Below are positions 12,357 through 28,200 of a stretch of DNA of 64,000 nt, piece by piece. A program made the translations under genes and the position numbers. The stretch spans positions 2,417,001-2,481,000 of the forward strand of contig NZ_CP161920.1 in the NCBI RefSeq assembly GCF_040819555.1, written 5' to 3'. Numbering within the stretch: position 1 is the first letter of the stretch; every line of letters starts with the position of its first letter. Source of the stretch: Nitratireductor sp. GISD-1A_MAKvit. GTDB lineage: Bacteria; Pseudomonadota; Alphaproteobacteria; Rhizobiales; Rhizobiaceae. Under the pieces are notes generated by a model. It had not been told where the DNA came from. It did no database searches and was given only the letters and a program-made list of their open reading frames with translations.

Positions 12357-13893
12357 ATGGACACATTAGCATCACTCGCAGACGGTTTTGCCGTCGCGCT
12401 TACCTGGCAAAACCTCATGCTTGCGCTGATTGGCTGCTTTCTCGGCACCATCATCGGCGCCCTGCCGGGCCTCGGCCCTTCAAACGGCGTTGCTATCCTC
12501 ATTCCGCTCGCCTTCACGCTCGGCCTTCCGGCCACGCCGGCGCTCATTTTGCTCACCAGCGTCTATTACGGCGCCATGTATGGCGGGCGCATCTCGTCGA
12601 TCCTGCTCAACATTCCAGGCGACGAACCGGCGCTGATGACGACGCTCGACGGCCATCCCATGGCCAAGGCCGGCAGGGCCGGTGAAGCGCTGGCGATTTC
12701 CGGCCTTGCCTCCTTTGTCGGCGCGTTCTTTGCCACATGGGGGCTGGTCTTTCTGGCACCACAGCTCGTCAAGGTCGCGCTCCTCTTCGGCCCGGCGGAA
12801 TATTTCGCGCTCTTCGTGCTCGCTTTCGCCACGCTTGGCGGCATTGCAAGCCGCAATCAGGCCAAGGCCGCAGTCGCTGCCGTCATCGGTCTCGGCATCG
12901 CCACCATCGGTGTCGACGGTCAGACCGGCGTTCCGCGCTTTTCCTTCGGCGAGGTGCATTTATACGACGGGATCGACTTCCTCGTCGCCATTGTCGGCCT
13001 TTTCGCGCTCTCGGAAGTCTTCATCTTTCTTGAGCACCGCGCCGGCAGCGGCGCCGATGACAAGGTGGTGAAGGTGGGCCGCATCGTGCCGCCATGGAAA
13101 ACCGTGCGCGAGACCATTCCCGCCATGGGGCGCTCGACCATCTTCGGCTTCATCGCCGGCGTCCTGCCGGGGGCCGGTGCCTCGCTCGGCTCCTTCATTT
13201 CCTACACGTTCGAAAAGCGCATCTCCGACCGCAAGGGAACGTTTGGAAAAGGCGACCCGCGCGGCGTCGCCGCCCCCGAGGCTGGCAACAATTCGGCCGC
13301 TGGTGGTGCTCTGGTGCCCATGCTGGCGCTCGGCGTCCCCGGCTCCGGCACCACCGCCGTCCTGCTTGCCATGCTGCTTGCGCTCAACATCACGCCCGGC
13401 CCCCCTGCTCTTCCAGCAGAATCCGGATGTGGTCTGGGGGCTGATAGCTGCCCTCTTCATCGGCAACATCATGCTTCTGGCAATGAACCTGCCGCTGGTC
13501 TCGCTCTTCGTGCGGGTGCTTCTTATCCCGACACGCTATCTGATGCCCGCCGTGGCGATGATCTCCTTCGTCGGCATTTACGGCATATCCGGCTCGACCT
13601 TCGATCTGGTGGTGATGGTCATCTTCGGTGTCATGGGCTGGGTGCTCCGCAAGCTCGACGTGCCGCTGGTGCCGATCATTCTCGGTGTGTTGCTTGGCGA
13701 TCAGATGGAAAAGAACCTGCGCCGCGCCATGACCATCCATGACGGCGACTGGACGATGCTCTTCAACTCCTGGCTGGCGATCGGTCTGTGGACCTTTGCC
13801 ATTGTCGGCTTTGTCCTGCCGCTGATCGTGGGGCGCTACTTCCGCCCGAAGATTGCCGACGAGGCCATCGCCGAGGGCTCCGACCCAGACTGA
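12357..13893 (+). CDS. tctA: Tripartite tricarboxylate transporter large permease TctA (frameshifted)
   Basis: Main permease, about 511 residues once corrected. The N-terminal half has the family motif GALPGLGPSNGVAILIPL and SILLNIPGDEPA. The middle has GVLPGAGASLGSFISY and APEAGNNSAAGGALVPMLALGVPGSGTTAVLL. The frame breaks in a six-C run (13400-13405), after LNITPGP. With one C removed it continues LLFQQNPDVVWGLIAALFIGN and runs to TGA at 13893. Both halves are intact and homologous, so I read one functional gene with a base-count error. Secondary active uptake, driven by the ion gradient. Confidence 0.85.
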
Positions 13894-13906: not shown

Positions 13907-14794
13907 TCAGCTTCCCGAGGCGGCGTGGCTCCTGAGCCGCGCCGTTCTCAATGTAAGGAACCCTGTGGCAAGCACGATGATCAAGGCACCGATCACCGTG
14001 TTGAGACTGGGGATCTCACCAAAGAAGACATAGCCGACAAGCCCCGACAGGATGAGGCTCGAATAACCGAGCGGTCCCAGAAACCCGGCATCGCCCAGCC
14101 AGTGGGCGCGCAGGAAACAGAATTGCGCGGCCTGCGAAAACAACCCCACCGCCAGAAGAAACGGCCAATGCCCAGCCGCAACCGGCTGCCAGCCAGAGAG
14201 CGCCGGAAAAGCGGTGATGAGCGCCAGCCCACCGGTGTAAAACAGCATCATGACGACCGGCGGCGTGCCCTTGAGCTGCCGCGTGACAATGATTGCACCC
14301 GTACCGGCCAGAACAGCGGCGAGTGCGGCCAGAAGCGCCGGTGTCCAGGGCACGTTGGCCGGACTTGCGGCTATGAACGCCCCCACCAGTCCCAGCGCAG
14401 CCGCCAGCCAGCGCGAGCCGGAAACCGCTTCACGCAGGATCACCGCCGAAAGCGCCACCAGAACCACGGGCCGGGTGAAATTCATCGTCATGTAGAGCGC
14501 CAGCGGCAGATGCGCGACCGCGTAGAAGCCGCCTGTCAGCGCCACAGCCGACAGGAAAACCCGTAACAGATGCAGCGGCACATGGTCGATCCGAGTAAGG
14601 ACGGATCGCTGGTGCGCCAGCCATGGCAGGATCACGCAGAAACCGACCAATGCGCGGAGAAAAACGAGCTGCCAGGGTGGATAGCCGGCCCCCAGCGCCT
14701 TGACGATGGATATGGCCCAGATGTTGAGGCCCATATCCGCCAGAAGCCAGGCCCCGGCGCGCAGATTGTCCTTCGGAGTTGCTCCAGCACTCAC
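13907..14794 (-). CDS. EamA/DMT-superfamily transporter
   Basis: Inner-membrane protein of 295 residues with ten predicted helices in two EamA repeats (LVFLRALVGFCVILPW in the first, PLGYSSLILSGLVGYVFFGEIP in the second). It begins at GTG 14794, overlapping the stop of the deacetylase gene by 4 bases (GTGA), so the two are co-translated. DMT proteins export or import small metabolites such as amino acids, purines or sugars. In this operon it may export a by-product or take up a precursor of the deacetylase pathway. Substrate unknown. Confidence 0.82.
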   Translation of the reverse strand: MSAGATPKDNLRAGAWLLADMGLNIWAISIVKALGAGYPPWQLVFLRALVGFCVILPWLAHQRSVLTRIDHVPLHLLRVFLSAVALTGGFYAVAHLPLALYMTMNFTRPVVLVALSAVILREAVSGSRWLAAALGLVGAFIAASPANVPWTPALLAALAAVLAGTGAIIVTRQLKGTPPVVMMLFYTGGLALITAFPALSGWQPVAAGHWPFLLAVGLFSQAAQFCFLRAHWLGDAGFLGPLGYSSLILSGLVGYVFFGEIPSLNTVIGALIIVLATGFLTLRTARLRSHAASGS

Positions 14795-17145
14795 GGCCTT
14801 GCCACGAGGTTCGCCATCAGGCGGAACGCACCCGGCACAAGCTTCTCCATCTGATGGTGCAGGATGAGTGCCACATGGGTGTGCCGCCCCTTGCCGATGC
14901 GGGCAGAAAGGAGCGAGCCCTCATGCGGTACCTCATCGGGATCGGCCATCGAAAGAAGCGGTTCATAGACCTCGTCCCAGCTCCTGGCGAAGTAAAGGCC
15001 CCGCTCCTTGTGCCAGCCCTTCCAGTCCTCGGCGACAATGCGGTTGGGCGTGTTCAGCAACGCATGATCAGGCAGGAGATGGGTCACCTCGGCATTCTCA
15101 TCGGTCACCCGCCAGCGCAGCGATGGCTTGCCGATTTCGAGCCGGCGCACCGGCACGGTCTCCGGATCCCAGTCATCCCACGGGCGGTGATAGAGCGTGA
15201 CAAGATTGCCACCCGCCTCCACCCAGCGATGCAGCACCGGCATGGCATTTTTGAGCGCCGGTCGTGCACGCATGGCGAATATACCCACCACAATCGTGTC
15301 GAGATTCTTCAACCCTTCTTGCGTGATCTCGCTGTCCGCCAACTCGGTCACATCGAGGCCGAGAGCCCTGAGCCAGTGACCCACGCGGTCGTTGCCACCA
15401 CCGACATAGCCCACCCGCACATCCGGCAGTGCCACATCCAGAACCCGCACGGAAAGCTGCGCCGGAAACGCGCGCGCGCGTTCGCCGGTATGTGGATAAC
15501 TGATCCGCTTGACAGTTTCGGCGGGCGTCCCGTCGATCTGAAGGGAAACATCGTAGAGGCCCGACGCAATGTCTTTCGGCGCTTCCACGAGAAAACCGCC
15601 CGCAACGGACTTTGCGGACCAACCGGAAGGCAATTCCAGCCCCACTTTCCCCGAATGCGGATAAAGCTCGCAAACGCGCAGATCGATCTGGCGGGTGGCT
15701 GCCGCTGTGTTGATCAGAGCACGGTCGGGAGAGAGTGCTGCCGAGCGTGCAGGAAGCACGACCGGCGCCCGTTCCAGCGGCAAAAGCGTCTCCGACGAGA
15801 CTTCATCGACGGTCACGCCGACACGGATGGCCGGAAGGCGCGCAACACCGGGACGGTATGTGGCCGGATAACAGTCCGTGCTTTCGGCGTCGACCGGCAC
15901 GTGAACGGCACCATCCGCAAAGCGCCAGCCTTCCGGCAGAACCGGCGACACCTCCGCAACGGGACCGGAGCTTTCAATGGTCAGCGCGACATGATCGCCG
16001 GGCCGCAGGACATCGCGTTCGAGCCAGGCGCGCACCTCCACGCCACTGGCAATCCGCATGATGTGAGAAAGCTGCATTTCCTTTGCCGCGAGGCGGTGGT
16101 GAACCTCGTCTCGTGCCCTGTCGGGGCAGGCATCGCGGGCAGCACGCACCGCCTTGAGGGCCAAGGCCGCCTGCTGCGCCACCGCTTCGATATCCGGAAA
16201 CGCGGCCAGTGCTGCATCGCAGGCCGTCTGCGCCGCTTTCAGGTCGTCGGCAATTTCAGGCGCACCGGCAAAAGAAGCCAGATCGGCCAGTGTGGCCGGA
16301 AGCCCGTCCGTGATCCGGTCATCGGGACCATTCACCTCGGATCGTACCAGATGCAGTGGCCAGTCGCGCTCCTGCCCGTGAGGCACCCAGCGGCCCATGC
16401 CCTGCGTCAGATGGAAGGCGCGCGACTGCTCGCCGATCTGCGCCCAGCTCCACCCGGTTACCGGGTCTTCGCCCGCACCCTTGACCGTCAGCGTGGCTTT
16501 GGGTGGCGGCAGATCGTCATCGTAATTGTCGCCTGCGCCCGACCATGCCGGCAGGTAGAGCTTCTTCACCCGCCAGACCGGAAGATCCACGCCCGGAAAT
16601 TCCGGGTCGGCGGCAGCGCAAACCACGTCATGGGCAAGCTCGGTCATCGCCCGGTGATGCCCATGCTGCCCCGGCACGTCCAGGAATGTGGGGCAGATGA
16701 TGTCCGGTCGCTCGGTGCGGATGATCTCGACAAAGCGCTTGAGCGTGCGCTCGCGACCCCATTTTTCAAGCGTTTCGGTGCCGCGTTTTGAAAAGCCGAA
16801 ATCGAAGATCGTGTCGTCGGGTGTTTCCGATAGCCAGTAGAGATTGAGGTTCAGCACATCGGCCGCGCGCTCCATTTCCGCCGTGCGCACCACCCCCAGG
16901 TCATGCGTTAGCTCGGAGCCGATGGCATTCTGTCCGCCCTCGCCGCGATTTGCGCAGGCAAAGGAGAGCGAAATGCCATCGCGCAGGGCCAGTGCCGCCA
17001 GCATTTGCGATGTCTCGTCGTCGGGGTGTGCGCCCGTGTTCATGAAGGAGACGCAGGATTTCAGCGGTGCCAGGGCCTGCCACAGTTTGACAATGCGCGG
17101 ATTGCGCAGCTGTGCGGCTATACGCTCCTGATCGGAAACGGGCAT
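14791..17145 (-). CDS. Large PIG-L family deacetylase with C-terminal GATase-like region
   Basis: Protein of 784 residues. The N-terminal 270 residues are a PIG-L (LmbE) zinc N-deacetylase: GAHPDDET at residues about 39-46 gives the metal-binding His and Asp, and GQHGHHRAM supplies the third ligand. A long middle region with beta-sandwich character (WLERDVLRPGDHVALTIESSGPVAEV) follows. The last 250 residues contain VRVGYVGGGNDRV, a WVEAGGNLVTLY stretch and an IGKGRHTHVALILHHQ end, resembling a glutamine-amidotransferase-like fold without an obvious catalytic Cys. ATG at 17145 has GGGAGG upstream. PIG-L enzymes remove acetyl or other acyl groups from amino sugars. The operon with a ROK repressor and a sugar transporter fits an amino-sugar conjugate. 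The exact substrate is unknown. No signal peptide, so cytosolic. Confidence 0.8.
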   Translation of the reverse strand: MPVSDQERIAAQLRNPRIVKLWQALAPLKSCVSFMNTGAHPDDETSQMLAALALRDGISLSFACANRGEGGQNAIGSELTHDLGVVRTAEMERAADVLNLNLYWLSETPDDTIFDFGFSKRGTETLEKWGRERTLKRFVEIIRTERPDIICPTFLDVPGQHGHHRAMTELAHDVVCAAADPEFPGVDLPVWRVKKLYLPAWSGAGDNYDDDLPPPKATLTVKGAGEDPVTGWSWAQIGEQSRAFHLTQGMGRWVPHGQERDWPLHLVRSEVNGPDDRITDGLPATLADLASFAGAPEIADDLKAAQTACDAALAAFPDIEAVAQQAALALKAVRAARDACPDRARDEVHHRLAAKEMQLSHIMRIASGVEVRAWLERDVLRPGDHVALTIESSGPVAEVSPVLPEGWRFADGAVHVPVDAESTDCYPATYRPGVARLPAIRVGVTVDEVSSETLLPLERAPVVLPARSAALSPDRALINTAAATRQIDLRVCELYPHSGKVGLELPSGWSAKSVAGGFLVEAPKDIASGLYDVSLQIDGTPAETVKRISYPHTGERARAFPAQLSVRVLDVALPDVRVGYVGGGNDRVGHWLRALGLDVTELADSEITQEGLKNLDTIVVGIFAMRARPALKNAMPVLHRWVEAGGNLVTLYHRPWDDWDPETVPVRRLEIGKPSLRWRVTDENAEVTHLLPDHALLNTPNRIVAEDWKGWHKERGLYFARSWDEVYEPLLSMADPDEVPHEGSLLSARIGKGRHTHVALILHHQMEKLVPGAFRLMANLVARP

Positions 17146-17164
17146 TTCTGAACCTCCCAGAGAA

Positions 17165-18364
17165 TCAAGTTTTCGCGGCAATGCGCGGTGTGATGGTGTC
17201 GTGGATGACGAGTGCTGCCCCGCCTAGAGCGGCGGTGAGACGCCCGCAGGCGCCGCGCTGGACACGTGGTGTGGCGCGCCGGTCGCTGGCAGCCACCGAC
17301 CCGGCCGGCAGGTAGAGCGCGGAAATCAGATGATCGAGCACCGCATCGGGCATGGCACCGCCCAAAATCACGGTTTCGGGATCGAACAGGTTTTCGATCA
17401 GTCCGATCGCCTGTGAAAGCGGTCCGGCAGCCTCGTTGATCCACGCCATCAAATGCGGGTCGTTCGCCTCATAAAGCCGCTCGATATCAGAAACGCTCGC
17501 AATGGCGATGCCGGCCTTTGCCAGCTGCTCCCGCGCCGCGATCCGGCTGGCATAGGTTTCAAGGCATCCCCGGTTCCCACAGGCACATTGACGACCGTCG
17601 GGCGTGACGATCACATGGCCGATCTCGCCTGCATTGCCGAACGCACCGCGCCGCACCTCGCCATCCTCGACCACGCCGAGCCCCAGGCCCGCTCCGAAAT
17701 AGAGAAAGCAGAAGGTGCGAAGTCCGCCAGCGATGCCGCGCACGCGCTCGGCCACCGCTGCCGCCGTGGCGTCATTCTCCACCACCACGGCCATGTCGAG
17801 CGCTTCCTCGAAAAGCGCTGCCGCATCCACATCGCTCCAGCCATGCAGCGCGGACTGTCCCGCACCCGATATGCCCACATTGCCGAATGGCCCCGGCATC
17901 ACGACACCGGCGCCAAGCAGCCGCTGGCCAGAGCCGCAGCTTGCCTTGAGTGCCTCGCTCAGGATCGACTGGGCGATCGACAGGACGGTTTTCGGATCGT
18001 TGTGCGGCAGCGCGACGCGTGTGGTGTAGAGCGTTTCACCGGCAAGATTGACCAGCGCGCCGAACATGGCGTCGGGCCGCACCTCGATGCCCAGTGCGGC
18101 CGCGCCATCACCGTTGAGACGGTATTGAAGGACCGGCAGCCCCCTGCCCGACGAATGTCGGCCGGCTTCCGCCAGAAATCCATCCTCCTCCAGCTCCGCG
18201 ATGATGTTGCTGACCGCCTGCGTGGAAAGCCCGGAGAACCGAGCAAGCTCCGCGCGGCCGATCGGCTGGTGCTCACGCACAAGCCCCAGCACCACCTGCC
18301 GGTTATGCAGACGCGTGCGCTCGGCATTGGAACCGACGATGCGACGGGGATTGTTGATCTTCAT
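17165..18364 (-). CDS. ROK-family (NagC/XylR) transcriptional repressor
   Basis: Regulator of 399 residues: an N-terminal winged HTH (GRAELARFSGLSTQAVSNIIAELEEDGFL), then a ROK sugar-binding domain with VVENDATAAAVAER, the GAGLGLGVVEDGEVRRGAFGNAGEIGH segment and the zinc site CACGNRGCLETY. It precedes the PIG-L deacetylase on the minus strand by 19 bases and is divergent from the ABC transporter operon across a 147-base gap that contains AT-rich inverted repeats. It probably represses both arms until a sugar or sugar phosphate from the pathway binds. Confidence 0.9.
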   Translation of the reverse strand: MKINNPRRIVGSNAERTRLHNRQVVLGLVREHQPIGRAELARFSGLSTQAVSNIIAELEEDGFLAEAGRHSSGRGLPVLQYRLNGDGAAALGIEVRPDAMFGALVNLAGETLYTTRVALPHNDPKTVLSIAQSILSEALKASCGSGQRLLGAGVVMPGPFGNVGISGAGQSALHGWSDVDAAALFEEALDMAVVVENDATAAAVAERVRGIAGGLRTFCFLYFGAGLGLGVVEDGEVRRGAFGNAGEIGHVIVTPDGRQCACGNRGCLETYASRIAAREQLAKAGIAIASVSDIERLYEANDPHLMAWINEAAGPLSQAIGLIENLFDPETVILGGAMPDAVLDHLISALYLPAGSVAASDRRATPRVQRGACGRLTAALGGAALVIHDTITPRIAAKT

Positions 18365-18376
18365 ATCTGCTTATTA

Positions 18377-18393
18377 ATTCAACTAACTTGAAT
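18377..18393. promoter_or_regulatory. Candidate ROK operator between repressor and sugar transporter
   Basis: ATTCAA-CTAAC-TTGAAT is a perfect 6-base inverted repeat in an AT-rich patch that stands out from the surrounding GC-rich DNA. A related half-site pair (ATTCAAC...GAGTTAAT) follows at 18394-18413. The position, just upstream of the repressor start, fits autoregulation and control of the divergent operon. Confidence 0.6.
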
Positions 18394-18511
18394 ATTCAAC
18401 TTGATTGAGTTAATCGTCGATGAATGGACATTCCGCCTCATCGAGACGGATGAACAGAGGGTGACAGGCTGGCCGGCAGATTTCGGGCAGCGTTCAAAGG
18501 GAGCAAGCAGG

Positions 18512-19771
18512 ATGAAACTCAACAGACTACGGACCTTCATGCTGGGTGCCGCAACGGCAGCCATGACCATGGCCGCAGGCAGCGCATCAGCGGTCGAGAT
18601 CGAGTACTGGCAGTATTTCTTCGAAGCCCGCGTCAATGCGATGGACAAGCTGATCGAGAATTTCGAGGCAGCCAATCCCGACATCACCGTCAAGATGACG
18701 CATTTCCCCTATGACAGCTATCGCACCAAGGTTGCCGCGGCCATTCCCGCCGGACAGGGCCCCGACGTCGTCCAGCTCTTCTATGGCTGGCTCAACGACT
18801 ATGTGGAAGCCGAGCTGATTCAGCCCCTGCCGGCCGAAACGTTCCCGCCGGAAAAGATCGAGGAAGAGTTCTTCCCCATGGTCAAGGCCATGCGGATGGG
18901 CGACAGCTACTGGGCCCTGCCAACCGCAGTGCGCTCGCTGGCGCTCTTCTACAATAAGCGCATGTTCGATGAAGCCGGCATCGAGAACCCGCCGGCCAAT
19001 CTCGACGAGCTTGTCGAAACCGCGAAGAAACTCACCAAGAAGGACGGTGCGGGCAATCTGACCGCCGTCGGCCTGACCACCGGCATGACCGCGCAGGACC
19101 ATCACTGGATCCGCGAAGTGCTGATCCGCCAGTTCGGCGGCGAGCCCTATCTGGATAACTACAAGACCGTCAACTACAACAATGAGGCCGGGCTGAAAGC
19201 CTTTGGTTTCTATAATGATCTGCAGGCCAAGCATGGCGTGACCAAGGCTGCCTTCATGGACGAGCCGCAGGCCGCCTTCAAGGCAGGCCGCGCCGGCATG
19301 CACATTGACGGTTCCTTCCGCATCGGCGCGCTGGAAAGCGTGCGCGGTCTCAAATGGGGCGTGGCCGAGCTTCCCGCCGGGCCCGATGGCACCAAATCGA
19401 ACTATTCCTCCTACTGGGTGAACGCAATCACCTCCAAGGCGGAAGGCGAGAAGTTCGATGCCGCCGTCAAGTTCATGGAGTACCTCACCTCCGACGAGGC
19501 CATGCAGATCTGGCTTGAGACCGTCGGCGAACTGCCAGCCAAGCCGTCTGCCGCCATGACCGACGAAAACGTCAACCACCCGGTCTATGGCCCCTTCATC
19601 AAGGGTCTGGAATACGCAAAGACCACCGTTTTCGCCAATGAAAGCGCCCAGCGTCAGGCCATGGTGGACATGATGCAGCGCATCGAACTGCAGGGTCAGG
19701 CGCTTGAAGAGAGCGTCTCGCAGGCCGCCGAGGAAGAGCAGAAAGTCCTCGACGAATACTACAAGAAATAA
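18512..19771 (+). CDS. CUT1-type sugar ABC transporter substrate-binding protein
   Basis: Periplasmic protein of 419 residues: signal peptide ending ASAVE, then EIEYWQYFFEARVNAMDKLIENFEAANPDI, PAGQGPDVVQLFYGW, LPTAVRSLALFYNK and the Trp/Tyr-rich carbohydrate cleft typical of family 1 binding proteins. ATG at 18512 with GGGAG upstream is preferred to an upstream in-frame start. First gene of a five- or six-gene operon. The family binds oligosaccharides, glycerol-3-phosphate esters or amino-sugar conjugates; the ligand here is unknown. Confidence 0.88.
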   Translation: MKLNRLRTFMLGAATAAMTMAAGSASAVEIEYWQYFFEARVNAMDKLIENFEAANPDITVKMTHFPYDSYRTKVAAAIPAGQGPDVVQLFYGWLNDYVEAELIQPLPAETFPPEKIEEEFFPMVKAMRMGDSYWALPTAVRSLALFYNKRMFDEAGIENPPANLDELVETAKKLTKKDGAGNLTAVGLTTGMTAQDHHWIREVLIRQFGGEPYLDNYKTVNYNNEAGLKAFGFYNDLQAKHGVTKAAFMDEPQAAFKAGRAGMHIDGSFRIGALESVRGLKWGVAELPAGPDGTKSNYSSYWVNAITSKAEGEKFDAAVKFMEYLTSDEAMQIWLETVGELPAKPSAAMTDENVNHPVYGPFIKGLEYAKTTVFANESAQRQAMVDMMQRIELQGQALEESVSQAAEEEQKVLDEYYKK

Positions 19772-19779
19772 GGCCTTTC

Positions 19780-19803
19780 GGGCGTCCGGCCAGCCGGGCG
19801 CCC
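19780..19803 (+). terminator. Intercistronic hairpin after the sugar-binding protein gene
   Basis: GGGCGTCCGGC pairs with GCCGGGCGCCC (11 bases, one G-U pair) with a very short loop and no T tract. As after tctC, it lies between binding-protein and permease genes, where such hairpins raise the binding protein's mRNA level. Confidence 0.55.
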
Positions 19804-19824
19804 AACGAAATTCGGGACGGGGCC

Positions 19825-20719
19825 ATGCGCTTTTACAACAATCTCACCATCTCGCAGAAGCAGATCGTCTGGGCCTGGATCTTCCTTGCCCTGCCGGTTC
19901 TCTTCTACGTTGTCATCCGCTTTTATCCGACAGCCAATGCCTTCGTTCTGTCCTTTCAGGAATGGAACCTTCTTGGCGACCGGAAATATGTGGGCCTTGA
20001 AAATTACGCCAAACTGTTCAGCGATCCAGTCTTCTGGAAAGTGTTCAAGAACACCTTCCTGTATCTGATCCTGGGCACGCCGGTCAGCCTCGTCCTGTCC
20101 TTCATCATCGCCTATCATCTCGACAAGGTGCGGTTCATGCACGGCACCATCCGTGCGCTCTATTTCCTGCCCTTCATGACGAGTGCTGTCGCCATGGCCT
20201 GGGTGTGGCGCTGGTTCTACCAGCCGGTCCCCATCGGCGTGTTCAACAATTTTCTGGCAAGTTTCGGCATCGGCCAGATCGAGTTTCTGAGCTCGACCAC
20301 CAATGCCCTGCCCTCGGTTCTGGCCTGCGCAGTCTGGGCCGGCCTCGGCTTTCAGGTCATCATCTTCATGGCGGGGCCTGCGCGCCATTCCGCAGAGCTA
20401 TTACGAGGCCGCGCGCATCGATGGCGTGTCCACATGGACGGTTCTCACCGAGATCACCATCCCGCTTCTGAAGCCCACCATCGTGTTTCTGGTGGTCTTT
20501 TCCTCGATCGGTTTCCTGCGGATCTTTGATCAGGTTTTCAACATGACCACCAACAATCCGGGCGGTCCGCTGAACTCCACCAAGCCGCTTGTGCTTCTGA
20601 TCTACGACACCGCCTTCAACGGCTTCAACATGGGCTACGCGGCAGCGCAGACCGTCGTGCTTTTCACCATTCTGCTGGTCGTCAGCCTGATCCAGCTTCG
20701 ACTTTTGAAGGATAGCTGA
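19825..20719 (+). CDS. Sugar ABC transporter permease 1 (MalF/UgpA type, frameshifted)
   Basis: Inner-membrane permease of about 297 residues with six helices, beginning at ISQKQIVWAWIFLALPVLFYV. The frame breaks in a G4 run at 20373-20376. With three G it reads [37 protein letters not shown], the EAA loop that docks on the ATPase, and continues to TGA at 20719. Without correction the EAA motif is lost, so the break matters for function if real. It is followed two bases later by the second permease. Confidence 0.85.
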
Positions 20720-20720
20720 C

Positions 20721-21602
20721 ATGGCCAGTCAGGACATCGCCGTAAAGCCTTCCACCGACGCGCTTTTCTCCGGATCCTCGCGCAACTCCCGGCGCAATAT
20801 GGGACAGTTCATCCGCTGGGCGCTCCTGTTCGGCGGCGGCATTCTCATGATCATGCCCATCGTGTTCATGGTCTCGACCTCGCTGAAATTCCCCTTCGAG
20901 GTCTACAATCTGAACCTGATCCCCGAAGAGCCGACCATCGAGAACTACACCTATGTGCTCGAAGACGGACGCTTCTATCGCTGGTTCGTCAACTCGCTGG
21001 TGATCTCCATCGTCACCACCGCATCCGCCGTCTTTTTCGACGCGCTGGTGGGGTATGCGCTGTGCAAGTTCAAATTCCCCGGCCGCTATCTGGTCTTCAT
21101 CGCCATTCTCTCGACATTGATGATCCCGACCGAGATGCTGGTCATCCCGTGGTATCTCATGAGCAAGAGCTTTGGCTGGCTCGACACCTATTGGGGCATC
21201 ATGTTCCCCGGTGTCATGACCGCCTTCGGCACCTTCCTCATGAAGCAGTTCTTCGAAACTGTTCCCGACGATTTCCTGGAAGCTGCACGCATCGACGGGC
21301 TGAACGAGTTCCAGATCTGGTGGCAGGTGGCCATGCCGCTCGTGCGCCCGGCGCTCGCCGCCCTCGCGATCTTCGTCTTTCTCGGCAACTGGACCGCCTT
21401 CATCTGGCCGCTGATCGTCACCAATTCGGTGGAGATGTACACGCTGCCTGTGGGGCTCTCGAGCTTCGGCGACGAGGTGGACGTGGCCTGGGAACTGATC
21501 ATGACGGGTGCGGCCATTTCCACACTGCCCACACTGGTCGTCTTCCTCATCTTCCAGCGCTTCATCATCCGCGGCGTTGTCATGGCCGGCCTCAAGGGAT
21601 AA
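20721..21602 (+). CDS. Sugar ABC transporter permease 2 (MalG/UgpE type)
   Basis: Permease of 293 residues with six helices and an intact EAA loop (FLEAARIDGLNEFQIWWQVAMPLVRPALA). The N-terminal tail is long and polar, then FIRWALLFGGGILMIMPIVFM. Pairs with the preceding permease. The next gene starts 7 bases after its stop. Confidence 0.9.
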   Translation: MASQDIAVKPSTDALFSGSSRNSRRNMGQFIRWALLFGGGILMIMPIVFMVSTSLKFPFEVYNLNLIPEEPTIENYTYVLEDGRFYRWFVNSLVISIVTTASAVFFDALVGYALCKFKFPGRYLVFIAILSTLMIPTEMLVIPWYLMSKSFGWLDTYWGIMFPGVMTAFGTFLMKQFFETVPDDFLEAARIDGLNEFQIWWQVAMPLVRPALAALAIFVFLGNWTAFIWPLIVTNSVEMYTLPVGLSSFGDEVDVAWELIMTGAAISTLPTLVVFLIFQRFIIRGVVMAGLKG

Positions 21603-21609
21603 GCGCATA

Positions 21610-23097
21610 ATGAGTCTGAACGAGAAATTCCCCCATCCCGTCTACAAGGACACGGTGCTGGCACCGCTCTTTGAAGGCGTGAAGGCCAATTATGTGGGTG
21701 CGTTCCGCGCCATCAACCGGGCGCATCTGGTGATGCTGACGGAAACCGACATCCTTGCCCGCGAGGATGCGAAACGCATCGCAGCCGCCCTCGTCGACAT
21801 TGACGAAACTGTCGATGTCGACGCCCTCACCTATACCGGCGAGGTGGAAGACTATTTCTTCCTCGTCGAGGCGGAGCTCAAAAAGCGGCTTGGGCCGGAT
21901 CTTGCCGGCATGCTGCACACGGCCCGCTCGCGCAACGACATGGACCACACGGTCTTCAAGCTCACCTTGAAGCACCATGCCGACACGCTGATCGGCAAGG
22001 CGCATTCGTTGGCCTCAGCCCTCATCGCCAAGGCCGAAGCCGAACGCGACACGCTGATCGTTGCCTACACGCACGGCCAGCCGGCCCAGCCCTCCACCTT
22101 CGGCCACTATCTGTCGGCGGCCGTCGAGGTGCTTCTGCGCGACATCGAGCGCCTGCAGGCCGCCCGCGCCAATATCGATCATTGCCCAATGGGGGCTGCC
22201 GCCATCACCACCAGCGGCTTCCCCATCGACCGCGCCCGCATGGCCGATCTTCTGGGCTTTTCCGAGCCGCTGCGCAATTCCTATGGCTGCATTGCATCCG
22301 TTGACTATGTCACCGGCCTCTACAGCGCGATGAAGCTCACTTTCCTGCATCTCGGGCGCCTGATCCAGGACATGCAGTTCTGGTCGGCCTTCGAGGTGGG
22401 ACAGCTTCATGTGCCCGGCAGTCTCGTGCAGATTTCATCCATCATGCCGCAGAAGCGCAATCCCGTGCCCATCGAGCATCTGCGCCATCTTGCGTCGATG
22501 ACCTGCGGGCGCGCGGACGCGGTCGTCAACACGATGCACAACACGCCCTTCACCGACATGAACGACAGCGAGGGCGAGGTTCAGGTGGCCGGATATGCGG
22601 CTTTCCAGAGCGGCGCACGCGTCCTCGATCTTCTGGCAGCGCTCGTCAGCGCCGTCTCCATCGATGGTGACCGCGTGGCGAAAAATATCGATGCCGCCTG
22701 CATCACGGTGACCGAACTCGCCGACACGCTGGTGCGCCGCGAGGGGCTCTCTTTCCGGCAGGCACACGAAATCGCAGCCACCACGGCCCGCGCCGTCATT
22801 GCCGCCGGCAAACCGCTTGGCGAAGGTCATGACGCCTTCTCTAAGGCCTTCCGGGAACTGACCGGGCGCGACAGCACGCTCGACCCCGCAGCCTATGGCG
22901 AGGCCGTCAGCGCACGCCATTTCGTTGCGGTGCGCGAGCGTTTCGGCGGTCCGGGACCCGAAGCCATGAACGAGGCGCTTCAAACCTATCGCGCCACCCT
23001 CACCCGCCTTTCAGAACAACAGGCAGCGGACCTTGCCCGCGCCGAAAAAGCCGGAGCCGCGCTCGACGCCGCTTTCGGCGCTCTCTTGCAGGAGTAG
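21610..23097 (+). CDS. ArgH-like lyase of the fumarase/aspartase superfamily
   Basis: Enzyme of 495 residues. It has the superfamily regions TARSRND (residues 104-110), YTHGQPAQPSTF (from 153) and the flexible signature loop ISSIMPQKRNP (275-285), whose second Ser is the catalytic base. ArgH usually has G-SS in this loop; here Ile takes the place of Gly. The protein sits inside a sugar-type ABC operon between permease and ATPase genes, far from arginine biosynthesis genes, so a catabolic C-N (or C-O) lyase releasing fumarate from a dicarboxyethyl-substituted compound is more likely than argininosuccinate lyase. EDDS lyase of Chelativorans is a precedent for an ArgH homologue in catabolism. 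Substrate unknown. Confidence 0.75.
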   Translation: MSLNEKFPHPVYKDTVLAPLFEGVKANYVGAFRAINRAHLVMLTETDILAREDAKRIAAALVDIDETVDVDALTYTGEVEDYFFLVEAELKKRLGPDLAGMLHTARSRNDMDHTVFKLTLKHHADTLIGKAHSLASALIAKAEAERDTLIVAYTHGQPAQPSTFGHYLSAAVEVLLRDIERLQAARANIDHCPMGAAAITTSGFPIDRARMADLLGFSEPLRNSYGCIASVDYVTGLYSAMKLTFLHLGRLIQDMQFWSAFEVGQLHVPGSLVQISSIMPQKRNPVPIEHLRHLASMTCGRADAVVNTMHNTPFTDMNDSEGEVQVAGYAAFQSGARVLDLLAALVSAVSIDGDRVAKNIDAACITVTELADTLVRREGLSFRQAHEIAATTARAVIAAGKPLGEGHDAFSKAFRELTGRDSTLDPAAYGEAVSARHFVAVRERFGGPGPEAMNEALQTYRATLTRLSEQQAADLARAEKAGAALDAAFGALLQE

Positions 23098-23101
23098 ACC
23101 C

Positions 23102-24160
23102 TTGGCCACCTTGTCCCTACGCAATCTCGTCAAATCCTACGGCAAGGTCGAGGTGCTTCACGGCATCAATCTCGACGTGGCCGATGGTGAATTCGTCGTC
23201 TTTGTCGGCCCGTCCGGCTGCGGCAAATCCACGACACTGCGCATGATCGCCGGCCTTGAGGAGATCAGCGGAGGCGAAATCCACATCGGCGAGCGCCTCG
23301 TCAACAATCTGGAGCCCAAGGAGCGCGACATCGCCATGGTGTTCCAGAACTATGCGATCTATCCGCATATGTCGGTGCGCAAGAACATTGGCTTTGGCCT
23401 GCGCACGTCCAGGCTTTCAAAAGAAGCCAAGGACAAGCGCATCGACGAGGTGGCCGCCATTCTCGGCATGACCGATCTTCTGGAGCGCCGGCCAAACCAG
23501 CTCTCGGGCGGGCAGCGGCAGCGCGTCGCCATCGGCCGTGCCATGGTGCGCGATCCCGCCGTCTTCCTGTTCGACGAGCCGCTCTCCAATCTCGATGCCC
23601 AACTGCGCACCCAGATGCGCCTTGAAATCAAGAAGCTGCACCAACGCGTTGGAAACACGATCATTTTCGTGACGCACGACCAGGTCGAAGCCATGACCAT
23701 GGCCGACCGGATCGTCATCATGAAGGATGGCTATATCCAGCAGGTCGGCACGCCGCTTGAGGTCTACCACAAGCCGGCAAACACCTTCGTCGCCCAGTTC
23801 ATCGGCGCCCCATCCATGAACATGCTGCCGGGCAACTGGGCCGGAAAGGGCGTGAAACTCGGCGACGGGCTCGGCATCGATCTGCCCGAACGCAGCGCCT
23901 CGGAAGGGGCGGACGTGATCCTCGGCATCCGTCCCGACGACCTTGTCGTGACCGGTGGCAAGGGGCTTTTCTCCGGCACCGTCAACATTGTCGAACCGCT
24001 CGGCGCGGACACGCTGGTCTATGTCGGCGTCAACGGTCATGAAGTGATCGCAAAGGCTTCCGGCCGCAAGCCACCAAAGGCCGGCGAACCGGTGAAACTC
24101 ACGGCGAAGTCCGGCGAAATGCACCTGTTTGACGCGAAATCCGGGGAGGCGCTGCCGTGA
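23102..24160 (+). CDS. Sugar ABC transporter ATP-binding protein (UgpC/MalK type)
   Basis: ATPase of 352 residues: Walker A FVGPSGCGKSTTLRMIAGLEE, Q-loop MVFQNYAIYPHM, signature LSGGQRQRVAIGRAMV, Walker B VFLFDEPLSNLDAQLR and H-loop VTHDQ. Two C-terminal OB-type domains follow, as in sugar importers. The start is TTG at 23102, giving ATLSLRNLVKSYG, the usual beginning; upstream readthrough into the lyase frame is not supported. It energises the two permeases above. Confidence 0.92.
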   Translation: MATLSLRNLVKSYGKVEVLHGINLDVADGEFVVFVGPSGCGKSTTLRMIAGLEEISGGEIHIGERLVNNLEPKERDIAMVFQNYAIYPHMSVRKNIGFGLRTSRLSKEAKDKRIDEVAAILGMTDLLERRPNQLSGGQRQRVAIGRAMVRDPAVFLFDEPLSNLDAQLRTQMRLEIKKLHQRVGNTIIFVTHDQVEAMTMADRIVIMKDGYIQQVGTPLEVYHKPANTFVAQFIGAPSMNMLPGNWAGKGVKLGDGLGIDLPERSASEGADVILGIRPDDLVVTGGKGLFSGTVNIVEPLGADTLVYVGVNGHEVIAKASGRKPPKAGEPVKLTAKSGEMHLFDAKSGEALP

Positions 24161-25056
24161 TGCAAGCCAACCGGTCAGGCCGCGTCCTGAGCGTGGGCCG
24201 GCTTTACTGCGATCTCATCTTCACGGAACTCCCGAAGATGCCAACGCTGGGAGAGGAAGTCTTCGCGGGCGGCCTGTCCATAAAGCCCGGCGGCGGCGCG
24301 TTCATTACCGCTGCCTATGTGGCGGCCCTCGGTCGTCCGGTCTCGCTGGCATCGGCATTGCCCTCCGGGCCATTCGCCGCAGCACTGATGAAAGAGCTTG
24401 AGGCAAGCGGCATCGATCTTTCGGCTTCGCAGCCCATGCCCGACACGCTCGATCCGCAGATCACCGTGGCCATGACATCGGGCACGGAACGCGCCTTCCT
24501 CACCCGGCGCGCCGGGCCCGCCGTGCCGGAGACATTTGCACGAGCCATCGCCAGCGGCGGTTTTGCCCATCTCCATATCGGCGAGCTCGCCACGCTGGTG
24601 GAAGCGCCCTTCCTCATCGAGCAGGCGCGCGGTGCCGGGCTATCCATCTCGCTCGACTGTTCCTGGGACGATGCGGTTCTGGCCCGAGACGATCTCGCCT
24701 CGCTGATCGGCGCCGTGGACATATTCCTGCCCAACGAGACGGAGGCGCAGCGGCTTGCCATTTCCCCCGGCAAGAATCCGCCCGCCCCACTCACTGTCGT
24801 CAAGCGCGGGCCGGAGGGTTCCATCGCCATCAGCGCGGACAACACGGTCTCGATGCCGACGCAGCCCGTAAATGTAATCGATTCCACGGGCGCCGGAGAC
24901 GCGTTCAATGCCGGCTTCATAGATGCGTGGCTTTCCGGCAAACCGCTCGAAGATTGCCTTGAAGCGGGCAATCGCTGCGGGGCGGAAGCCGTCATGCGGG
25001 TCGGCGGGGCAACCGATCTGCCCGATCTGAGCGCGCTGGCGCGGGAAATGTCTTAA
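24157..25056 (+). CDS. PfkB-family carbohydrate kinase
   Basis: Ribokinase-family kinase of 299 residues. The N-terminal LSVGRLYCDLIFTELP and GGLSIKPGGGAFITAAYVAALG segment is the PfkB substrate region, and DSTGAGDAFNAGFIDAW is the C-terminal signature with catalytic Asp. The ATG overlaps the ATPase stop by 4 bases. As the last gene of the transporter operon it should phosphorylate the sugar released from the imported compound. Ends overlapping the convergent gntR gene by 4 bases. Confidence 0.85.
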   Translation: MMQANRSGRVLSVGRLYCDLIFTELPKMPTLGEEVFAGGLSIKPGGGAFITAAYVAALGRPVSLASALPSGPFAAALMKELEASGIDLSASQPMPDTLDPQITVAMTSGTERAFLTRRAGPAVPETFARAIASGGFAHLHIGELATLVEAPFLIEQARGAGLSISLDCSWDDAVLARDDLASLIGAVDIFLPNETEAQRLAISPGKNPPAPLTVVKRGPEGSIAISADNTVSMPTQPVNVIDSTGAGDAFNAGFIDAWLSGKPLEDCLEAGNRCGAEAVMRVGGATDLPDLSALAREMS

Positions 25057-25764: not shown

Positions 25765-26928
25765 TCAGCTCACCTTCCTGCCCAGCCGTTCCAGCATGCC
25801 GAGACATTCATCGAGCTGTTCCAGCGAGACGAACTCGTCTGCCTTGTGCGCTTGCTCTATCGAGCCCGGCCCACAGATCACGGAGGAAATACCCGCTTTC
25901 TGGAAAAGCCCTGCCTCCGTGCCGAACGCCACCACTTCCGCCTCGGTAAGGCCGGTAAGCTCGGAGACGATCTGGCGCGCCTCCGATTCGGTTACCGGCT
26001 CCAGCCCGTCCACCTCACCGATCACATGGGTCACAATGTCGGCCCCCTCGAACACCGCTCGCATGGCCGGTTTCAGCTCGGCTTCGACAAAAGTGCGAAT
26101 GCGGTCTTTCACAAAATCCGCATCCTCATTGCGCACCGGGCGCATTTCCCATTCCACCGAACAATGGTCGGCGATCACATTGCGCGCCGCACCGCCCGAG
26201 ATCGTGCCCACCTGAAGCGTCGTCCAGGGCGGGTCGAACCGGTTGCCCTTGGGCGCGCGCGTCTTCAGCTCCTCGGCCAGCGCCATGAGTCGCGAAATAT
26301 AGCGCACGGCATATTCAACCGCGTTGACGCCGCGTTCAGGCGAAGAGGCATGGCCGGCAAGCCCGCGAAACTCGGTCGTGTATTCGAAACAGCCCTTGTG
26401 GCCTTCGATGATGCGCATCATGGTCGGCTCGCCGATAATGGCGACGGAGGGCCGGACCTCGGCCCGCTCCAGTTCCTCCACCAGCGCGCGCGCGCCAAAA
26501 CACCCCACCTCCTCGTCATAGGTGAACGCGAAATGCAGTGGCCTTTTGAGGTCCAGCTCGGCAAAGTTCGGCGCCATGGCAAGGGTGCAGGCGATGAAGC
26601 CTTTCATGTCACAGGTGCCACGGCCATAAAGCCTGCCATCCGCCTCACGCATGGCAAAGGGATCGCCTGTCCACTCCTGCCCCTCGACCGGCACCACATC
26701 GGAATGGCCCGAAAGCACGATGCCGCCATCTCCTTCGGGTCCGAGCGTGGCAAACAGGTTTGCCTTGTGCCCGCTCTCGTCGAGCGTCATCGATAGCCTG
26801 GCACCGAGCGCGCTCAAAAGCTCGCTCGCATAGGCGATCATTTCCAGATTGCTGTCTGCCGAAATGGTAGGAAACCCCACCAGATCGGACAGAATGCGCG
26901 TCGTGTTATCAAGCGTTTCGGACCGCAT
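25765..26928 (-). CDS. M20 deacetylase, ArgE type; probable N-acetyl-diaminobutyrate deacetylase
   Basis: Zinc peptidase-family enzyme of 387 residues. It has VLSGHSDVVPV (first metal His and catalytic Asp), YGRGTCDMKGF, TYDEEVGCFGA (catalytic Glu) and the dimerisation part GLAGHASSPERGVNAVEYA. Closest in type to acetylornithine deacetylase. It lies 3 bases after doeA and before gntR, so it should deacetylate the DoeA product, N-alpha-acetyl-L-2,4-diaminobutyrate, which is one carbon shorter than N-acetylornithine. The usual DoeB/EutE (AstE-type) deacetylase is absent from the window. Function inferred from context. Confidence 0.8.
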   Translation of the reverse strand: MRSETLDNTTRILSDLVGFPTISADSNLEMIAYASELLSALGARLSMTLDESGHKANLFATLGPEGDGGIVLSGHSDVVPVEGQEWTGDPFAMREADGRLYGRGTCDMKGFIACTLAMAPNFAELDLKRPLHFAFTYDEEVGCFGARALVEELERAEVRPSVAIIGEPTMMRIIEGHKGCFEYTTEFRGLAGHASSPERGVNAVEYAVRYISRLMALAEELKTRAPKGNRFDPPWTTLQVGTISGGAARNVIADHCSVEWEMRPVRNEDADFVKDRIRTFVEAELKPAMRAVFEGADIVTHVIGEVDGLEPVTESEARQIVSELTGLTEAEVVAFGTEAGLFQKAGISSVICGPGSIEQAHKADEFVSLEQLDECLGMLERLGRKVS

Positions 26929-26931
26929 GGA

Positions 26932-28116
26932 TCAGGTCTTCACGATCAGTTCGCGCGGGCGGCGGCACAGCGCCTCGGCTGGCCCATCTTCGGTGATCAG
27001 AATGCTTTCGGTGATTTCCAGCCCCCAGTCGGCCATCCACAGGCCCGGCATGAAATGGAAGGTCATGCCCGCTTCCAGAATAGTTTCGTCCTCACGGCGC
27101 AGCGAAATGGTGCGCTCGCCCCAGTCGGGCGGATAGGAAATGCCGATCGGATAACCGCAGCGCCCGTCACGCGTGATGCCGGCCCGCTCCAGCGCGCCAT
27201 AAAGCGCATCGGCGATCTGGCCGGCACGATTGCCCGGACGCGCCATCTCCAGTCCTGCCTCGATGCCTTCCACCAGCGCCTTCTCCGCATCCAGCATGTG
27301 CTGCGGCGGCGTGCCGAGAAAGACGGTGCGGCAGAGCGGCGCGTGGTAGCGGCGGTAGCAGCCGGCGATCTCGAAGAAGGTCGCGTGCCCCTGCTCGAAG
27401 CGGCGCCCGTCCCAGGTCAGATGCGGCGCAGCCGCGTCGGAGCCGGTCGGCAGAAGCGGCACGATGGCCGGATATTCGCCCCAGTCGTCATCGACACCGC
27501 GAATGGCGTCGGCATAGATTTCCGCCACCAGATCGTTCTTCTTCAGGCCCGGTTCGATGCGTTCGACAATACCGTCGATCATCTTTTCCGAAATCCGCGC
27601 CGCGCGGCGCATGAAGACGATCTCTTCGTCGGATTTCACCGCCCGCTGCCAGTTCACCAGCGCCGTGGCATCCACAAAGGTCGCGTTGGGCAGTTCTTCC
27701 TTCAGGACAAGATAGGCCTTGGCGGAGAAATAGTAGTTTTCCAGCTCCACGCCGATCCGCTTGTTGCCAAAACCATGGGCGCGCAGGATTTCGGCCAGGT
27801 GCTGCATCGGATGCAGCGTGTTGGCCTGCACATAATGGTCGGGATAGCGCAGCACCCGGTCGTCATCCATGTAGACCGTGCGCACGGCGCCGTTTCCGTC
27901 CATGGAGCGGCCCCACCAGATCGGATCGGCATCCTTGAAGACGATCACACCCTGATGGACATAGAACGACCACCCGTCATAGCCCGTCAGCCAGGCCATG
28001 TTGGAGGGATCCTCCACGAACAGGACATCGATACCCTGCGCCTCCATGGCGTTGCGGGTCTTTTCCAGGCGTGCGGCATATTCCTGCGCGCTGAAGGGCA
28101 TTTCGGCTGCTGGCAT
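26932..28116 (-). CDS. doeA: Ectoine hydrolase DoeA (EutD)
   Basis: Cytosolic M24 (creatinase/Xaa-Pro dipeptidase-like) enzyme of 394 residues that opens the ectoine ring to N-acetyl-diaminobutyrate. MAWLTGYDGWSFYVHQGVIV near residue 40 and WWGRSMDGNGAVRTVYM are characteristic of this subfamily. The C-terminal M24 domain has HLTWDGRRFEQGHATFFEIAGCYRRYHAPLCRTVFLG. ATG at 28116 has GGAGGA upstream; longer N-terminal readings have no support. First gene of the minus-strand arm, divergent from eutB. The neighbours (EutB, EutC, DoeX, DoeC, DoeD) make the assignment firm. Confidence 0.92.
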   Translation of the reverse strand: MPAAEMPFSAQEYAARLEKTRNAMEAQGIDVLFVEDPSNMAWLTGYDGWSFYVHQGVIVFKDADPIWWGRSMDGNGAVRTVYMDDDRVLRYPDHYVQANTLHPMQHLAEILRAHGFGNKRIGVELENYYFSAKAYLVLKEELPNATFVDATALVNWQRAVKSDEEIVFMRRAARISEKMIDGIVERIEPGLKKNDLVAEIYADAIRGVDDDWGEYPAIVPLLPTGSDAAAPHLTWDGRRFEQGHATFFEIAGCYRRYHAPLCRTVFLGTPPQHMLDAEKALVEGIEAGLEMARPGNRAGQIADALYGALERAGITRDGRCGYPIGISYPPDWGERTISLRREDETILEAGMTFHFMPGLWMADWGLEITESILITEDGPAEALCRRPRELIVKT

Positions 28117-28190
28117 GGTTCCTCCAAAAAGCGAAAGACCGGACGCTTGTGCACCCGGCGAAACCGTACACCGGAAAGGCATTCGCAACC

Positions 28191-28200
28191 TTGTGTACAA
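28191..28200. promoter_or_regulatory. TTGTGTACAA site 1, candidate GntR operator
   Basis: TTGT-GT-ACAA lies 75 bases before the doeA start in the doeA/eutB intergenic region. It recurs exactly at 28285-28294. The arms fit FCD-type GntR operators, and the gene for such a regulator is in the doeA arm. Confidence 0.6.

Follow-up and report, generated by a model that had tools for sequence, protein, structure and literature searches.

Glucosaminyl-malate is described as the backbone of bacillithiol (Cys-GlcN-malate, GlcN standing for glucosamine; PMC4360819), bacillithiol is argued to be the most widespread low-molecular-weight thiol of bacteria (PMC6282198), and GlcN-malate is presumed to be recycled (PMC4101496). 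The LmbE/PIG-L enzymes known by 2014 act on N-acyl-glucosamine and carry an HXDD+H zinc motif in which 97-148 residues separate ligands 2 and 3 (PMC4101496). S-(2-succino) lyase (2SL) is a fumarate-releasing lyase in the catabolism of succinyl conjugates (PMC9706529). Here we analyse a gene cluster at 13.9-25.1 kb of a 64,000-nucleotide stretch of Nitratireductor sp. GISD-1A_MAKvit (contig NZ_CP161920.1, forward strand; G000:C2:2417001-2481000 in our numbering), which as a whole is called the window. The cluster encodes a PIG-L enzyme, an ArgH-superfamily lyase, a PfkB kinase and a CUT1 importer beside a ROK regulator. We see an even chance that it is a regulon dedicated to the catabolism of an N-acylated glucosamine with a C4-dicarboxylate, most likely (N-acyl-)glucosaminyl-malate.

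Gene content and conservation of the cluster

The cluster consists of two divergent gene groups that share one intergenic stretch. On the reverse strand lie a large PIG-L (LmbE-like) amidohydrolase (14791..17145) and a ROK/NagC-like transcriptional regulator (17165..18364; PF00480 153 bits and a MarR-type helix-turn-helix). The forward group begins with a CUT1 solute-binding protein (SBP; 18512..19771; PF13416/PF01547 136 bits) and continues with permease 1 (19825..20719), permease 2 (20721..21602; PF00528 64 bits), the lyase (21610..23097, 495 aa; PF00206 145 bits, PF14698), a UgpC/MalK-type ABC ATPase starting at TTG (about 23102..24160; NF008653 503 bits, above the cut-off of 432) and a PfkB-family sugar kinase (24157..25056; PF00294 131 bits). 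All parts of a CUT1 ABC importer are present (an SBP_bac_1/8 protein, two BPD permeases and a UgpC/MalK ATPase), with permease 1 split between two frames. Profile searches and open reading frames (ORFs) bore out the genes, families and coordinates given in a preliminary description of the window; the split of permease 1 is a correction to it.

Co-occurrence of the families, which that description had named as a check, was found as a conserved neighbourhood in 131 distinct loci besides the window. These comprise 80 loci from a lyase scan of genome contigs (the best 80 of 414 relatives, a choice biased to high identity), 13 plasmid loci counted out of 17 regions that were picked by eye from match lists and fetched, and 45 further genome loci, less 7 duplicates; they are cited by their L numbers. 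Outside the 131 stand L088 (SBP match only), L089, L094 and L099 (lyases less closely related, from different contexts), L169-L171, and L167-L168 (Deinococcus ficus and D. wulumuqiensis), which do carry the cluster. A gene was scored as absent when tblastn gave no match of at least 65 bits, and counting required a flank of at least 7 kb upstream for PIG-L, at least 4.7 kb upstream for ROK and at least 4.5 kb downstream for the kinase. Since the lyase served to select every locus, the counts are silent on clusters that lack it.

By tblastn, CUT1 genes lie near the lyase in 124/131 loci, the ROK regulator is present in 99/122, PIG-L in 98/118 (83%) and a kinase in 87/117 (78 PfkB, 9 ROK family). 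In most of the 80 loci where the contig suffices, the order is PIG-L, ROK // SBP, permease, permease, lyase, ATPase, PfkB, and in alphaproteobacterial loci the lyase stands between permease and ATPase. Because this gene order is kept across genera, the cluster is a real unit and not a chance assembly of genes. Among control genes of the window or genome, RlmN and LysE were found in 0/131 loci each and a MurQ-like gene in 2/131; TctA was found in 9, of which 5 are from Nitratireductor. ArgH was uninformative as a control, as it matches the cluster lyase itself.

The clusters occur mostly in Alphaproteobacteria and also in Deinococcus; the named loci include Granulosicoccaceae and a metagenome-assembled genome of the SUP05 cluster, which we take to be Gammaproteobacteria. 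Among the matches listed, Nitratireductor supplies the closest lyases and loci. The lyase family was found in 12/385 sampled Alphaproteobacteria, own genome included. In Hyphomicrobiales, 113/397 genomes gave a match, and a clean gap separates 35 matches (own genome included) of at least 691.9 bits from the rest, which reach at most 360.1 bits.

The lyase compared with ArgH

The lyase scores 297.8 bits with TIGR00838 and passes its cut-off of 279.5, which explains its annotation as argininosuccinate lyase in public records. The genome's own ArgH is encoded elsewhere, reaches 616.6 bits and is 33% identical to the cluster lyase. The signature of the aspartase/fumarase superfamily (SSxMPxKxNP with the catalytic Ser, and the catalytic TH) is found in the cluster lyase, which keeps SRND, T154-H155 and SSxMPQKRNP; H155, S276, S277, M279, P280, K282, N284 and P285 are invariant in 14/14 sequences and T154 is kept in at least 90%.

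In ArgH, the loop LPLxYxxDxQED holds the arginine side. This loop was found in 0/131 readable cluster lyases, 121 of which carry HNxPFxDxxD in its place; of the remaining ten, six have Arg or Gln for His, and L040, L057, L058 and L152 diverge further (L147 was outside the loop reading). Sixteen other superfamily members were included in the tree. The ArgH loop is present in 9 of them (own ArgH and 8 of 12 fetched sequences) and neither loop in 7 (L161-L164, L089, L094 and L099), and HNxPFxDxxD occurs in 0/16 of these sequences as aligned. The Deinococcus cluster lyases are 33-34% identical, yet have the same HNxPFxDxxD, and they group with the alphaproteobacterial cluster lyases, apart from ArgH (support 97/90). 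Judged by these features, the cluster lyase is not the housekeeping ArgH. Arginine biosynthesis as its main function, which the preliminary description had named as a refutation of its reading, is disfavoured by the separate argH (617 bits) and the missing loop. Because the superfamily machinery is kept and the ArgH loop is replaced, the lyase would be expected to release fumarate, with some leaving group that is not arginine.

Deaminases and kinases beside the cluster

When the ORFs of the 80 first loci were clustered, ten families outside the core recurred in at least 4 loci. One of them is an SIS protein located directly behind the kinase in different genera. Other steadily placed families (a Tex-like gene in five loci, TctA) follow shared synteny of Pseudorhodobacter or Nitratireductor, and one recurring family probably represents antisense frames, as judged by eye.

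Over the full set, a predicted glucosamine-6-phosphate (GlcN-6-P) deaminase stands at the cluster edge in 17/131 loci (7/80 genome contigs, 3/13 plasmid loci and 7/38 others), and 13 are of the NagB-II and 4 of the NagB type. It lies right behind the kinase on the same strand in 12 of the 17 (12/131 loci), upstream of the SBP on the opposite strand in 4 and behind PIG-L in 1. All four NagB proteins were profiled with TIGR00502; those of L093 and L101 are above the cut-off, and those of L065 and L116 score 221-223 against 237. GlmS models score far lower than NagB-II on the profiled proteins. The SIS neighbours do not resemble FrlB/FraB-type deglycases either: NagB-II against the fructoselysine-6-phosphate deglycase profile PRK11382 gives 313 against 27 bits for L091 and 279 against 35 for L019. 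On a FastTree lyase tree with 118 labelled rows (L147 left aside), the deaminase label requires at least 11 changes, gains or losses, so the association is not one inherited accident. A ROK-family kinase takes the usual place of PfkB in 9/117 loci, four of them confirmed by profile.

By their family assignments, two unrelated deaminases and two unrelated kinases would thus converge on glucosamine-6-phosphate. Because GlcN-6-P deaminases adjoin the cluster in these 17 loci, the freed sugar is most likely glucosamine. The window's genome has its own NagB-II gene elsewhere (C2:447761), with 43% identity to the L091 protein and 295 bits. At L154 5795-7778, this gene lies directly behind an SIS gene that by eye resembles N-acetylmuramic acid-6-phosphate etherase, with a divergent GntR-like regulator; this would be another amino-sugar locus.

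The PIG-L enzyme

The window's PIG-L protein has 784 aa when counted from its likely ATG (a 796-aa ORF begins at TTG 17181), and its PIG-L domain is N-terminal (PF02585 63 bits). The residues H40, D42, D43 and H161/H163/H164 are invariant in 12/12 aligned PIG-L proteins. The PF02585 match and the HXDD+H motif, with 118-121 residues between ligands 2 and 3 (97-148 in the criterion applied), place it among LmbE-like/PIG-L enzymes. Its nearest solved relatives by profile are diacetylchitobiose deacetylases (E 2e-6), and a profile search gave no match to the BshB/Bca models TIGR04000/TIGR04001. A NEW3 match was found in 2/12 alphaproteobacterial relatives.

In Deinococcus, a small MshB/Mca/BshB-like PIG-L protein, nearest to MshB and then to Mca and BshB, is paired with a lyase that has the same loop. 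That of D. deserti scores below cut-off with all models (81 and 64 bits for TIGR04000/TIGR04001 against 195 and 183; MshB 145 against 224). D. actinosclerus has a second PIG-L protein of 742 aa with NEW3 and CBM9 between lyase and SBP (L097 9485-11713), and annotation and length indicate two PIG-L genes arranged likewise in D. ficus and D. wulumuqiensis.

Regulation

The AT-rich palindromic region on the ROK side that had been reported for this locus is indeed present at 18371..18414. It is an array of TCAA/TTGA half-sites (TAATTCAA ... TTGAATATTCAA ... TTGAGTTA) and forms a probable ROK operator, located directly before the start codon of the ROK gene and some 100 bp ahead of the SBP start. 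Of the ROK-SBP intergenic stretches of other loci, 55/95 contain the word TAACTCAA/TTGAGTTA, against about 0 expected from first-order Markov resamples; the window is outside these 95 and carries the word as well. Word enrichment was used because exact 7+7 palindromes, which were rejected as operators, are only modestly enriched (e.g. 11/95 loci against 1.4 expected, spacer 5). The position of the putative operator suggests ROK autoregulation and divergent control.

Neighbouring genes

Downstream of PIG-L, a DMT/EamA-family transporter is encoded on the reverse strand (13907..14794; TIGR00950 48.5 bits, under the cut-off of 230.2). It is next to PIG-L in 54/118 observable loci, which makes it a member of the conserved set; its role is possibly by-product efflux. 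On the other side an ectoine-degradation locus adjoins (25765-28200), with DoeA (TIGR02993 630 bits, above cut-off) and an ArgE-like deacetylase. These genes and the adjoining GntR gene were rejected as members of the system, as they occur in 3/131 loci only, all from Nitratireductor.

Permease 1 breaks near 20.37 kb (ORFs 19825-20529 and 20303-20719). Compared with the near-identical Nitratireductor locus L007 it has one extra base, which puts it in two frames, and both parts map to one place in relatives. A gene at 12357-13893, by eye a TctA-like tricarboxylate transporter, also appears split, with ORFs 12357-13742 and 13177-13893 in different frames. Two genes broken in this way within a span of 8 kb point to errors in the assembly.

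Proposed pathway

An N-acylated glucosamine joined to a C4 dicarboxylate suits the requirement of every enzyme in the cluster. To our knowledge, glucosaminyl-malate is the only metabolite that joins glucosamine to a C4 acid, and its L-malyl group has the configuration used by fumarase-type enzymes. From the sequences we infer an O-malyl linkage and the following reactions. The CUT1 importer would bring the conjugate into the cell. PIG-L would strip the N-acyl group, either acetyl or, in a Mca/Bca-like reaction, cysteinyl. The lyase would act as an (N-acyl-)glucosaminyl-malate lyase, in which a fumarase/ArgH-type elimination, by homology with Ser277 as base and His155 as acid, splits the sugar from the malyl group and yields fumarate and free glucosamine with no need of a glycosidase. 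These two steps may take place in either order. PfkB, or elsewhere the ROK kinase, would serve as glucosamine 6-kinase, and NagB-II or NagB would convert the glucosamine-6-phosphate to fructose-6-phosphate and ammonia. The ROK repressor would detect a sugar intermediate and then leave its TTGAGTTA/TAACTCAA sites.

The scheme of the preliminary description, with import, N-deacylation, fumarate-releasing C-X cleavage, phosphorylation and ROK control, fits these findings, and its substrate stays a proposal. Of the conjugates that it had named as examples, glucosaminyl-malate is favoured by the GlcN-6-P deaminases, and sugar-aspartate conjugates are less so.

The most likely source of glucosaminyl-malate would be bacillithiol, its S-conjugates, or the precursors GlcNAc-malate (GlcNAc being N-acetylglucosamine) and GlcN-malate from other bacteria. 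BshC (PF10079) had 0 matches in the window's genome and was found in 3/14 controls (B. subtilis, Thermus composti and Deinobacterium); because of this absence, scavenging would apply rather than recycling of the cell's own bacillithiol. Producers are described as widespread (PMC6282198), with bacillithiol or its N-methyl form in e.g. the Bacteroidetes member Polaribacter MED152. That the cluster confers complete bacillithiol scavenging on non-producers, through a new glucosaminyl-malate lyase that opens the glycoside by elimination of fumarate from the aglycone and not by hydrolysis of the glycosidic bond, is a tentative proposal, to which we give somewhat less than even weight.

If it is true, the bacillithiol backbone gains a route back to central metabolism and there is a non-hydrolytic way of breaking a glycoside. 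Annotation would also have to be corrected, as an 'argininosuccinate lyase' family in Alphaproteobacteria (the 35/397 sampled Hyphomicrobiales) would not be ArgH. In the titles and abstracts examined from the open-access literature, we did not find a description of the cluster, of a glucosaminyl-malate lyase activity, or of bacillithiol breakdown or uptake. While each family is known, we found there no account of their combination or of the activity proposed for the lyase. We propose that the system is amino-sugar catabolism with a new entry enzyme.

Alternative explanations

Several observations speak against glucosaminyl-malate as the substrate. PIG-L gives no match in 20/118 observable loci and the kinase none in 30/117 (tblastn, at least 65 bits). 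No deaminase stands beside the cluster in 114/131 loci, nor in the window, and the NagB-II proteins profiled (9 of 13) score 228-316 bits with NF046059, all below the cut-off of 430, although this is still their best family. About 600 aa of the window's PIG-L protein have no Pfam match. The tree that joins the Deinococcus and alphaproteobacterial lyases comes with a long-branch warning. The annotations of the plasmid loci that were read name neither a bacillithiol nor a sulfur gene, the other loci not having been searched for such genes. L146 has two peptide-type SBP_bac_5 proteins, and L145 looks similar by eye; the proteins of L146 would suit a cysteinyl conjugate, which proves nothing. Finally, L131, L132, L137 and L138, all from one genus, carry the lyase without ABC genes or PIG-L. 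These members of the lyase family are 56-60% identical, and in L138 an FMN-dependent dehydrogenase adjoins; they may represent a different use of the same enzyme.

The substrate could instead be a Heyns- or Amadori-type sugar-aspartate, N-(glucos-2-yl)-aspartate or a related compound, from which the lyase would release fumarate and glucosamine by breaking a C-N bond in the manner of ArgH and EDDS lyase. Superfamily members usually cleave C-N bonds, and the nearest solved relatives of the lyase include 6g3d/6rx8, which are listed as argininosuccinate lyase and which we take to be EDDS lyase. An N-aspartyl (Heyns) sugar would equally yield glucosamine and fumarate, and a sugar-aspartate would account for those loci in which lyase, kinase and deaminase occur and PIG-L is missing (e.g. 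L091, L101, L128 and L129). In Rhodobacter capsulatus, a locus of fructose-asparagine-like type holds an ArgH paralogue that lacks the HNxPF loop, which points the same way. However, a C4 acid on N2 leaves no N-acyl group for PIG-L, which is present in 98/118 loci, and the SIS genes are NagB-II-like and not FrlB-like. We consider this explanation unlikely.

The Rhodobacter capsulatus paralogue is encoded on plasmid pRCB133 (L169 34-2654; L170; L171) and scores 344 bits with TIGR00838. It adjoins an SIS gene resembling fructoselysine-6-phosphate deglycase (81 bits, below cut-off), and the locus further contains an amino-acid ABC transporter, an asparaginase, GntR and, across the record start, PfkB; the opposite strand carries a ROK/CUT1/BadF-kinase cluster. 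The paralogue's locus resembles one for fructose-asparagine that includes an ArgH-like lyase. Given the missing HNxPF loop and the deglycase-like neighbour, the paralogue was not counted as further support.

Distinctly unlikely, in our view, is an N-acetylated amino sugar that carries the C4 acid as a malyl or succinyl ether at O3, O4 or O6, in which case a fragment of an envelope polymer or natural product would be degraded. The SBP has the acarbose/maltose binding protein GacH as its best solved relative by sequence, and its nearest solved relatives are mostly oligosaccharide binders; the profile of PIG-L is nearest to diacetylchitobiose deacetylase, and its large C-terminal part suggests a bigger ligand. 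Against this, we know of no such natural ether, and inspection by eye of the ten recurring families of the 80 loci revealed no glycosidase, no profile search for glycosidases having been made.

A ROK/NagC-like regulator, a CUT1 importer, a kinase, a GlcN-6-P deaminase and a deacetylase would also make up a deacetylase-first GlcNAc route, and the cluster could be an ordinary uptake system for an amino sugar (GlcNAc or chitobiose) with the lyase in another, secondary role. This is very unlikely: among loci that were all selected by the lyase, the lyase is kept in L100 and L102, where PIG-L and kinase give no match, and it is paired with PIG-L in L145-L147 (one genus, flanks partly cut), where CUT1 gives no match. 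Least probable of all is a catabolic argininosuccinate lyase or other amino-acid-type lyase (EDDS lyase, 2SL) among unrelated sugar genes, to which the cluster lyase's TIGR00838 score (298 against 279.5) and public annotation would point, since the order of importer, lyase, ATPase and kinase is kept across genera, the ArgH loop is found in 0/131 and argH is separate.

Comparison with known systems

The cluster lyase shares with ArgH the fold family, the SSxMPQKxNP loop, the catalytic TH and Ser, and fumarate as the expected product. It differs in that most members have HNxPFxDxxD for LPLxYxxDxQED, that it stands in an operon with sugar genes, and that the genome has a separate ArgH. EDDS lyase and 2SL likewise release fumarate in the catabolism of succinyl conjugates, but their substrates are N- or S-succinyl amino compounds and they belong to other loci; the solved structure 6g3d, presumably EDDS lyase, has Gln where the cluster lyase keeps His155.

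The catabolism of GlcNAc and glucosamine (NagK, NagB or NagB-II, the ROK protein NagC) also combines a ROK regulator, a sugar importer, a kinase and a GlcN-6-P deaminase, to which the cluster adds the lyase and the large PIG-L. The fructoselysine and fructose-asparagine (Frl/Fra) pathways resemble it in using a PfkB kinase and an SIS protein on a sugar-amino acid conjugate. Unlike them, the cluster has SIS proteins of the NagB-II type, together with lyase and PIG-L, and a Frl/Fra-type Amadori system is disfavoured by these neighbours.

Bacillithiol metabolism, with the deacetylase BshB and the S-conjugate amidase Bca/BshB2, is similar in that a PIG-L enzyme acts on N-acyl-GlcN-malate and glucosaminyl-malate is an intermediate, as described in the available parts of PMC4360819 and PMC4101496. 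The steps known from these same parts belong to biosynthesis and detoxification, and a lyase, an importer, a kinase and a deaminase are not among them (PMC4360819, PMC4101496). The window's PIG-L also differs from the bacillithiol enzymes in lacking a match to the BshB models.

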